DNA of 9,828 nt from Synergistetes bacterium JGI 0000079-D21 (GTDB taxonomy: Bacteria > Synergistota > Synergistia > Synergistales > 79-D21), in NCBI GenBank assembly GCA_000402835.1, contig AQRZ01000036.1:1-9828 (forward strand), read 5' to 3'. Below the pieces are notes generated by a model. That model did no database searches. It saw nothing but the letters and a program-made list of their open reading frames with translations, and was not told the DNA's origin. A program made the position numbers and the translations under genes. Positions 1-7,803 of this stretch are shown here, one piece after another (the first letter of the stretch is position 1; every line of letters begins with the position of its first letter).

Positions 1-95
1 CCAATTGACGGGAGGTGAGGGAATGGCCCAGGCGGAACGTTATGGCTATACGGTAGCACGCCTGAGGGCGATGGAAAATCGCCTCCTGGATTCCG
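1..95 (+). repeat. left arm of a 95-bp perfect inverted repeat
   Basis: Bases 1-95 are identical to the reverse complement of 7709-7803, with no mismatch. Identity stops at base 96 (g here, a in the other copy). The left side is cut by the window edge, so 95 bp is a minimum. The arm contains the last codon and stop of the ATPase E subunit (3-8), the Shine-Dalgarno of subunit C (11-18), and the first 24 codons of subunit C. It has no features of a mobile element terminus: it is simply the E/C gene junction present twice. Confidence 0.97.
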
Positions 96-1039
96 GTGCT
101 TTTCAGCGGATGCTGGATGCAGAGGACCTGCAGGGAGCACTCAAGGTTCTCAACGAGACCTGCTATTCGTCCTGGCTCGTTGAGATGAAGAACGAGGGCG
201 CTTTTGACGGGGCCATCGAGGCCGAGTTGAACTACGTGTACAGAGAAACCGAGCAATTTGTCCCTGACAGGGCTCTGGTCACCCTCTGCAAAATGCCTTA
301 CGACTTCCACAACATCAAGGTGTTGTTGAAAAGCTCCTTCCTGCAGAAAGCCGGCGGGGTGCGGCGATGGGATCTCCTGACTTGGCTGGGAAACGTTTCC
401 CCCGAGTTTTTGATCGAATCCCTCGAATCGGAAGATTACCGTCTCCTGCCTTTCGGTCTGAGAAGCGCGGTACCGCGGTGCCTGGCGCAATGGGAACAGT
501 TCCATGACATCCTCGAAATCGAGCGGCAGCTGGACGACCTCCTTTTTTCCGAAATGTTGAAGTTGGCCGCGAAGCTCGAACGGAAAGGTGTGATGGAATG
601 GGTCCAGGGAAGGATCGATGCGGAAAACGTCCGAAACCTCCTGAGGCTCCGCCGGTTGCAGGTGGAGAACAGCAGGATTGCCGGGTTCATGCACGAGGGG
701 GGCATCATTTCGATTGAACGCCTCCTTTCCCTGACGAGCGAGCCCCTGGAAAGCTGGGGAAGGATCCTGGCTTACACCGACCTGACAGGAGCGCTGGCGG
801 AGCTTCAGGAGATCTCCGATTTCGACCGGCTCATCGTAGACGTGGAAAAAGCACTGGACGACTACGTCCTCAGGGTTGTCGAGCAGACGCGGTTCAGTAC
901 CGCTTCTCCCGAGTATGTCCTTTACTACCTTTGGTTGAAGGAAATGGAAGCGAAGAATGTCCGGATCATCCTTGTCGGCAAGGCAAACGGAGCCAACAGG
1001 GACGTCCTGAGGGGGTTGCTGCGGCATGTCAGCGGTTAG
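23..1039 (+). CDS. ntpC: V-type ATP synthase subunit C (central connector, AC39/d family)
   Basis: Subunit C is the funnel-like connector joining the central stalk (D/F) to the membrane K ring of V/A-type ATPases. The 338-residue product fits the usual length of roughly 330-345. It is largely helical and soluble, and its C-terminus carries the family-typical stretch YYLWLKEMEAKNVRIILVGK, followed by a short helix ending HVSG. I place the start at ATG 23, not the in-frame TTG at 5. GGAGGTGA at 11-18 sits 4 nt before that ATG, and the TTG overlaps the end of the E gene. The gene follows the E stop (6-8) by 14 nt and overlaps the next gene by 14 nt, as in a translationally coupled operon. Its first 95 bp of context recur inverted at 7709-7803, so the promoter and upstream genes are not on this side of the window. 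Confidence 0.93.
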   Translation: MAQAERYGYTVARLRAMENRLLDSGAFQRMLDAEDLQGALKVLNETCYSSWLVEMKNEGAFDGAIEAELNYVYRETEQFVPDRALVTLCKMPYDFHNIKVLLKSSFLQKAGGVRRWDLLTWLGNVSPEFLIESLESEDYRLLPFGLRSAVPRCLAQWEQFHDILEIERQLDDLLFSEMLKLAAKLERKGVMEWVQGRIDAENVRNLLRLRRLQVENSRIAGFMHEGGIISIERLLSLTSEPLESWGRILAYTDLTGALAELQEISDFDRLIVDVEKALDDYVLRVVEQTRFSTASPEYVLYYLWLKEMEAKNVRIILVGKANGANRDVLRGLLRHVSG

Positions 1040-1367
1040 CAGAAACCGGTCGATGGCTGCTCTCGGCGATTACGAGAGCGTCCTTCCCTTTCAGGCGGTC
1101 GGTATTGAGCCCCATGTGCTCGAAGACGGATCGGAGACGGAGGCGAAAATGGTCCTGAACGAACTCGTGCTGAAAAAATACGCCGTGGTCTTCGTCGTCG
1201 AGGATTGGTACGAGCGCATGAAGGAACGGATCGAGGAAATCAACGAAAAGGAAGACACGAGCATCGTTCCCATCCCCGGACTTCGGGGATCGAGAGGCTT
1301 GGGGTTCAAGTCGATCAAGTCGAGCGTCGAACGGGCAGTCGGGATGGACATTTTTTCCGTGAAGTAA
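1026..1367 (+). CDS. ntpG: V-type ATP synthase subunit F (central stalk; NtpG in Enterococcus naming)
   Basis: Subunit F binds subunit D in the central rotor shaft. The 113-residue product shows the family pattern: an N-terminal beta strand running to G(D/E)YESVLPFQAVG, a central strand YAVVFVVED followed by a helix, then the strand SIVPIPG and a C-terminal helix SSVERAVGMDIF. Most homologues are about 100-105 residues and start just before the first strand. The ATG at 1053 would give a more typical N-terminus but lacks a visible Shine-Dalgarno, while ATG 1026 has a GAGGGGG about 9-10 nt upstream within the C gene. I therefore keep 1026, which overlaps the C gene by 14 nt, but the start is uncertain by 9 codons. 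It lies between subunits C and A, the usual place in bacterial V-ATPase operons. Confidence 0.9.
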   Translation: MSAVSRNRSMAALGDYESVLPFQAVGIEPHVLEDGSETEAKMVLNELVLKKYAVVFVVEDWYERMKERIEEINEKEDTSIVPIPGLRGSRGLGFKSIKSSVERAVGMDIFSVK

Positions 1368-1379
1368 TCGGAACAGGTT

Positions 1380-1384
1380 GGAGG
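1380..1384 (+). promoter_or_regulatory. Shine-Dalgarno of subunit A that fixes a GTG start
   Basis: GGAGG at 1380-1384 lies 8 nt before GTG 1393, which is in frame with subunit A. It overlaps the more upstream in-frame TTG (1378-1380), which therefore cannot be the start it serves. An out-of-frame ATG sits at 1391-1393, overlapping the GTG by one base. Confidence 0.75.
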
Positions 1385-1392
1385 CGATCCAT

Positions 1393-6771: not shown

Positions 6772-7688
6772 TCGAGCACACTCCGGTCCTTCTCGAAGAA
6801 GTCGTTTCGCAATTGGCCAGGGAGGGGATTCCCTCTTTTGTGGTTGATGCCACGGTGGGACTCGGAGGCTATTCGGAACGGTTTCTCATCGAGTGGCCTT
6901 CCTGTAGGGTTCTCGGGATTGACCAGGACCCCATGGCGCTGGAGCGGACCGTCGTGCGCCTGTCAAAGCCGATAGAAGAAGGGCGTTTCCGAGTTTGCGC
7001 GGGGAATTTCAGGCAGCTGGGGCAATTTGTTAAGGAATCTGGCTGGGGGATGCCGGACGGGATTGTCTTCGACCTGGGAGTTTCCAACCTCCAGCTCTCC
7101 TTGTCGGAGAGAGGATTTTCCTTCCAGGAAGACGGCCCTCTTGACATGAGGATGGGTGCCGGCGAAAAGACCGCAGGAGACTTGCTCAAGGACCTATCGG
7201 AAGCAGAACTGCGGAGGCTGTTCCGTGATTATGGCGAAGAACCGCATTCCGCGGCGATTGCCAGGGGTATCGTGAAGCACAGGGAGCAGAAAGGTCCCAT
7301 CATGACGACGGGAGAATTGGTAAACGTGATTCGAACCGTTCTTCCGGCGCCGTTGCAAAGAAAAATGAACCGGCATCCTGCCCGAAGGATCTTTCAAGCT
7401 CTGCGGATCGCTGTCAACGACGAGATGGAGGCCCTGAGGGAGGGGCTCGACCAGGCAATCCGTTCCGTCAGCGGAAATGGGTGTGTCCTGGTCGTAAGCT
7501 ATCACTCCCTTGAAGACAGGATCGTCAAGCACGCCTTCAACCAATGGGAAACGGAAGGGTTGGGACGCAGGATGCCGAGAAAGGCGATCCAGGCTTCGCC
7601 GGAGGAGATCCAGAAAAACTACAAGTCCAGGAGCGCGATGTTGCGCGTTTTTCGAATGAGCGGTTCGAAGATCGGTCCAGGGAGGTGA
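6768..7688 (+). CDS. rsmH: 16S rRNA (cytosine-1402-N4)-methyltransferase RsmH
   Basis: RsmH (MraW) transfers a methyl group from S-adenosylmethionine to N4 of C1402 in the ribosomal P site. The 306-residue product is of normal length and starts MIEHTPVLLEEV, the family's N-terminus. The SAM site is visible as VVDATVGLGGYSE (D27, G31, G33, G34) with GIDQDP (D52), followed by FDLGVSNLQLS (101-111) and GPLDMRM (123-129). NRHPARRIFQALRIAVNDE and YHSLEDRIVK are further signature blocks. The start is TTG 6768, served by GAGGAGG at 6751-6757, with no ATG or GTG available nearby. The C-terminus contains the next gene's Shine-Dalgarno: GGGAGGTGA includes the stop codon. It is the second gene of the dcw operon and should be followed by ftsL and a penicillin-binding protein gene, which are missing here. 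Confidence 0.97.
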   Translation: MIEHTPVLLEEVVSQLAREGIPSFVVDATVGLGGYSERFLIEWPSCRVLGIDQDPMALERTVVRLSKPIEEGRFRVCAGNFRQLGQFVKESGWGMPDGIVFDLGVSNLQLSLSERGFSFQEDGPLDMRMGAGEKTAGDLLKDLSEAELRRLFRDYGEEPHSAAIARGIVKHREQKGPIMTTGELVNVIRTVLPAPLQRKMNRHPARRIFQALRIAVNDEMEALREGLDQAIRSVSGNGCVLVVSYHSLEDRIVKHAFNQWETEGLGRRMPRKAIQASPEEIQKNYKSRSAMLRVFRMSGSKIGPGR

Positions 7689-7694
7689 AGAGCG

Positions 7695-7708
7695 ATGCCG
7701 TCTCCGGT
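7695..7708 (+). pseudogene. first codons of the next dcw gene (ftsL position), cut at the junction
   Basis: GGAGGTGA at 7681-7688 is followed after 6 nt by ATG 7695 and the codons M-P-S-P-V before the sequence turns into the reverse complement of the ATPase E/C region at 7709. A strong ribosome binding site with correct spacing, overlapping the rsmH stop, is what is expected for ftsL or an equivalent. The reading frame stays open to 8396 only because it runs antisense through the E subunit gene, and that part shows no FtsL features. The fragment is too short to identify by sequence, so the identity rests on gene order only. Confidence 0.5.
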
Positions 7709-7781
7709 CGGAATCCAGGAGGCGATTTTCCATCGCCCTCAGGCGTGCTACCGTATAGCCATAACGTTCCGCCTGGGCCAT
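7709..7781 (-). pseudogene. ntpC: 5' fragment of V-type ATP synthase subunit C (24 codons)
   Basis: From ATG 7781 the minus strand encodes MAQAERYGYTVARLRAMENR and then LLDS, identical to the intact copy at 23-1039, and diverges after Ser24. The frame continues by chance to 7194 through the antisense strand of rsmH, giving a hybrid ORF that should not be annotated as a protein. The fragment lies 14 nt after the E stop, exactly where subunit C belongs, so it is the true operon continuation interrupted at 7709. Confidence 0.93.
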
Positions 7782-7803
7782 TCCCTCACCTCCCGTCAAT
7801 TGG
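7709..7803 (-). repeat. right arm of the 95-bp perfect inverted repeat
   Basis: This segment read on the minus strand equals window bases 1-95 exactly. It includes the last codon and stop of E, the 14-nt E-C spacer with GGAGGTGA, and codons 1-24 of subunit C. The inner edge at 7709 is the point where subunit C sequence stops and sequence downstream of rsmH begins. Confidence 0.97.

Follow-up and report, generated by a model that had tools for sequence, protein, structure and literature searches.

The exact inverted repeat that splits the V-ATPase gene cluster in the stretch of DNA analysed here (9,828 nt, hereafter the window) is most likely not a biological feature. We conclude with high confidence that this is an inverted chimeric contig whose inverted repeat is an assembler overlap; bases 1-95 and 7709-7803 are most likely a single genomic stretch that was printed twice at an artefactual joint. 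The evidence lies in the exactness of the two arms, the start of one of them at the very first base, the normal gene order of related genomes, and the position at which the window jumps away from its closest relative.

An exact inverted repeat beginning at the first base of the window

An earlier note on this DNA had claimed a perfect inverted repeat, and rechecking the equality showed that bases 1-95 and 7709-7803 are indeed exact reverse complements (100% over 95 nt, zero divergence), separated by a spacer of 7613 nt. The match ends at base 96, a G whose complement, C, stands against a T at base 7708. On the outer side of the left arm extension is impossible, as base 1 is the window end. Each arm contains the junction between the V-ATPase E and C genes, and with the subunit C start codon at base 23 the arm carries 24 full codons of C, just as the earlier note had described.

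No other strong inverted repeat was found in the window. The second-longest exact inverted match within it is 16 nt, and the longest seen over 50 mononucleotide shuffles of the window was 18 nt. Twelve further inverted pairs of 20-31 nt are present, none of them perfect (complementarity 71-85%). Among these 12 weak pairs, 7528-7551 / 7726-7749 (24 nt, 71% complementary) touches the right arm and lies near the joint; we take it to be a chance occurrence.

Gene order in related genomes

The five closest loci, obtained from a subunit C scan of genome contigs, belong to Synergistaceae/Synergistales metagenome-assembled genomes and are 81-93% identical to the window in C. Each of the five matches the window (77-87% nucleotide identity) in two blocks, one on either strand, whose meeting point is the E/C junction, and in these relatives E therefore continues straight into C. 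In the closest of them, L001, window bases 1-7715 correspond to 10000-17748, while window bases 7709-9828 correspond to 10094-7974 on the opposite strand. L002 is a 3651-base contig, and its alignment spans window 1-2360 and 7709-9067 only.

Across the phylum, subunit C was matched in 140 of the 149 genomes sampled. Gene order was read in the fetched loci of 32 genomes (L006 to L037), which comprise the best 30 of the 140 phylum matches and two others and include the five closest relatives; the 110 other genomes with a C match fall outside the order count. I-K-E-C-F-A is collinear and on one strand in every one of the 32, and the spacing from the E match to the C match is -3 to 23 nt throughout. 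These loci are about 4 kb long and end before B. The B query did give matches in 28 of these 32 loci, and every one of the 28 lies over A; the two subunits being related, these matches were rejected as cross-matches and left uncounted. Several of the phylum C matches (G029, G026, G075, G078, G028, G039 and others) have one in-frame stop within the matched stretch, possibly a result of the match extending upstream of the C start codon.

Order beyond A was read in the four long loci (L001, L003, L004 and L005), and in all four of them A is followed by B-D-gamma-CA-mraZ-rsmH, a small ORF in the position of ftsL, and a penicillin-binding-protein (PBP) gene. In L001 the product of the PBP gene matched the transpeptidase and PBP dimerisation domains of Pfam. 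No Pfam match was obtained for the small L001 ORF between rsmH and this gene (17727-18146), and ‘ftsL’ denotes its position only. Compared with this Synergistaceae/Synergistales V-ATPase cluster (the four long loci, and L002 in part), the window has the same subunit genes, and it has its gamma-CA, mraZ and rsmH neighbours in common with the long loci, but the order that is unbroken in the relatives is broken in the window.

We also considered whether the arms might be a natural inverted repeat serving recombination, and rejected this, as the arm belongs to the ordinary E/C junction of the relatives and, in the alignments of the four long loci, does not recur after rsmH. An exact search of viral contigs for the 29-base joint gave no match, and the subunit C search of viral contigs returned three pattern-matching stretches, none of which encodes a relative.

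The joint downstream of rsmH

The window tracks L001 past rsmH as far as about position 7711, a few codons into the ORF in the ftsL position, and then runs into reversed C and E. Window bases 7695-7711 equal L001 17727-17743, and the continuation found in L001 is absent from the window. Around the joint, the target strand reads AC-CGG-AATCC, the L001 donor GT-CGG-GAATC, and the window GT-CGG-AATCC. Assuming that the organism's own sequence after rsmH resembles that of L001, the joint probably has a 3-nt microhomology, CGG. The joined segments come from one genome and are in inverted orientation (window 1-7715 and 7709-9828 lie on opposite L001 strands), about 7.6 kb apart on L001, that is, less than 10 kb.

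The earlier note had suggested that flipping 96-7708 would repair the operon. This does restore the V-ATPase order, but rsmH is then still followed by a copy of the arm, where the relatives have the small ORF in the ftsL position. Given that neighbour in the relatives, the repair is more truly stated as placing the reverse complement of 7709-9828 upstream of base 96. The real post-rsmH sequence is missing from the contig.

Proposed origin of the repeat and of the joint

Where reads agree up to a given k-mer and differ beyond it, the graph of a de Bruijn assembler forks, and the outgoing contig starts with that last common k-mer. The length of the repeat at a fork therefore equals K, however far the homology really extends. 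Base 1 of the window, whose edge is presumably also that of the contig, is exactly where the left arm starts, and we consider the 95-nt arm to be most likely a k-mer overlap at a graph fork, which would put K at 95.

This value has published counterparts, as SPAdes is described as having been run with -sc -k 25,55,95 for mini-metagenomes (PMC7065516) and for single cells (PMC11253033). Like the contig-end overlap of a de Bruijn assembler such as SPAdes, the arm is an exact overlap that begins at base 1 and has the length of a published single-cell K, which strengthens the suggestion in the earlier note that the repeat is an assembler overlap at a fork. The window differs from the SPAdes cases in that both of those K = 95 pipelines, as described, trimmed contig ends by 200 bp (another single-cell study is described as trimming 100 bp off contig ends), and in that for the window we infer both the assembler and K. 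Trimming would delete such an overlap, and we therefore suppose that the window comes from an untrimmed assembly.

Chimeras made during MDA are themselves amplified and can come to dominate locally. In the data given by Lasken and Stockwell 2007 (PMC1855051), 406 of 475 MDA chimeras were inverted and 337 of those 406 had segments less than 10 kb apart; complementary bases were found at the joint in 93.5% of the inverted chimeras of less than 10 kb, and this complementarity was short (2-21 nt). As in the inverted chimeras described there, the joint in the window is inverted, its segments are less than 10 kb apart, and it probably has a few complementary bases. Unlike in those chimeras, the arm repeat of the window would stem from the assembler, and MDA of the sample is something that we infer. 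The earlier note had read the contig as an inverted chimera from MDA or assembly, and this reading is supported by the 32 genomes with fetched loci, all of which keep the order unbroken, and by a joint whose orientation and distance fit MDA chimeras.

On this basis, the real chromosome order would be I-K-E-C-F-A-B-D, gamma-CA, rnpB, mraZ, rsmH and the ORF in the ftsL position. While the DNA was being amplified, most likely by phi29 MDA, a strand under synthesis would have detached just past rsmH and used CGG to prime anew on a neighbouring strand at C codon 24-25, and the re-primed strand would have copied back across C and E. The assembler would then have met two possible continuations after E, either C or reversed rsmH, and a fork would have resulted. 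The edge running from C to rsmH would start with the shared 95-mer at base 1, cross the joint into the reversed 95-mer, and continue into E-K-I.

Alternative explanations

A real inversion that splits a Synergistaceae-like V-ATPase operon between E and C, whether fixed or switching within the population, appears very unlikely to us; if it were true, the V-ATPase subunits downstream would be turned off or uncoupled. One form that it could take is a recent inversion of C through rsmH, in which staggered breaks duplicated the 95-nt E/C junction in inverted orientation at both ends. Such an event would leave both C and E complete, and the zero divergence of the arms is what a recent event would produce. 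However, the start of the duplication would have to coincide by chance with window base 1, and the second joint, at which the ORF in the ftsL position would adjoin C near base 96, would lie outside the window. Furthermore, the inversion would separate mraZ-rsmH from the ORF in the ftsL position and the PBP gene, to which they are joined in 4/4 long loci, and none of the 32 relatives with fetched loci has the split. Taken on its own, this event seems less probable still. We give even less credence to a mixed population, with the segment inverted in part of the cells and the graph fork a biological one. Since an overlap of length K appears at true forks as well, this reading accounts for the 95-nt arm equally well, and the weak inverted pair beside the joint could be counted in its favour were it not one of 12 such pairs. 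On the other hand, no recombinase or transposase was found among the 11 window proteins scanned, in agreement with the earlier note, and the overlap is the one strong inverted repeat found in the window. A mixed population should moreover have produced another fork, where rsmH meets its usual neighbour, and this should have broken the contig, which in fact continues; the rearrangement would again split an order that all 32 relatives with fetched loci maintain.

A chimera might also have arisen outside MDA, as a fold-back or chimeric read from library preparation that was taken up by the assembler in a low-coverage metagenome. The sequence anatomy would be the same, with the 95-nt overlap depending on K alone, but true reads usually outnumber reads of this kind unless coverage is very low, and we find this source just as hard to credit as a mixed population. 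The inverted chimera with an assembler overlap is thus the reading that we retain, and its significance is one of quality control only. An exact inverted repeat that starts at base 1 of a contig and has the length of the assembler's K should be taken first for a single sequence that appears twice on account of a chimeric joint, and not first for a biological inverted repeat.

Genes on either side of the joint

The genes on either side of the joint look sound, while their relative order in the contig does not look trustworthy. The gene content and strands given in the earlier note were recovered with NCBIfam and Pfam for C-F-A-B-D-gamma-CA-mraZ-rsmH on the plus strand and E-K-I on the minus strand, and with Rfam for rnpB on the plus strand (Table 1). 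For C, F, E and gamma-CA the scores are below the cut-offs, yet the NCBIfam models listed are the best matches of these proteins. Two further reading frames, one of 233 aa on the plus strand over the joint (7695-8396) and one of 201 aa on the minus strand (7194-7799), were rejected as genes and attributed to the joint.

Table 1. Features of the window, with strands and supporting matches.
Feature	Coordinates	Strand	Evidence or remark
Left arm, end of E / start of C	1..95	+	Exact inverted match to 7709-7803; collinear with L001 from 10000
V-ATPase subunit C, complete	23..1039	+	NCBIfam NF002266, 217.7 bits, below curated cut-off of 270; 93% identity to L001 and L002
V-ATPase subunit F	1026..1367	+	NCBIfam NF002384, 78.5 bits, below curated cut-off of 114
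V-ATPase subunit A	1378..3186	+	NCBIfam NF003220, above cut-off
V-ATPase subunit B	3167..4594	+	NCBIfam NF003235, above cut-off
V-ATPase subunit D	4608..5234	+	NCBIfam TIGR00309, above cut-off
Gamma carbonic anhydrase-like gene (gamma-CA)	5246..5767	+	NCBIfam NF050158, 173.2 bits, below cut-off of 250
RNase P RNA class A (rnpB)	5799..6147	+	Rfam RF00010, 286.6 bits
mraZ	6301..6771	+	NCBIfam TIGR00242, above cut-off
rsmH, complete	6768..7688	+	NCBIfam TIGR00006, above cut-off
First codons of ORF in ftsL position, truncated by joint	7695..7711	+	Identical to L001 17727-17743
Probable false joint, CGG common to both sides (3-nt microhomology)	7709..7711	.	Donor side as deduced from L001
Right arm, same E/C junction entered via joint	7709..7803	-	Exact inverted match to 1-95
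V-ATPase subunit E	7796..8386	-	NCBIfam NF002629, 43.8 bits, below cut-off of 184; adjoins C in 32/32 relatives
V-ATPase subunit K	8393..8914	-	NCBIfam NF005124, above cut-off
V-ATPase subunit I, truncated by window end	8948..9826	-	Pfam PF01496 (V_ATPase_I), 47.4 bits, above cut-off

The rnpB gene sits between the gamma-CA gene and mraZ, and the nucleotide alignment with L001 continues across it. The V-ATPase genes of the window thus lead, by way of rnpB, to the start of the division/cell wall cluster.
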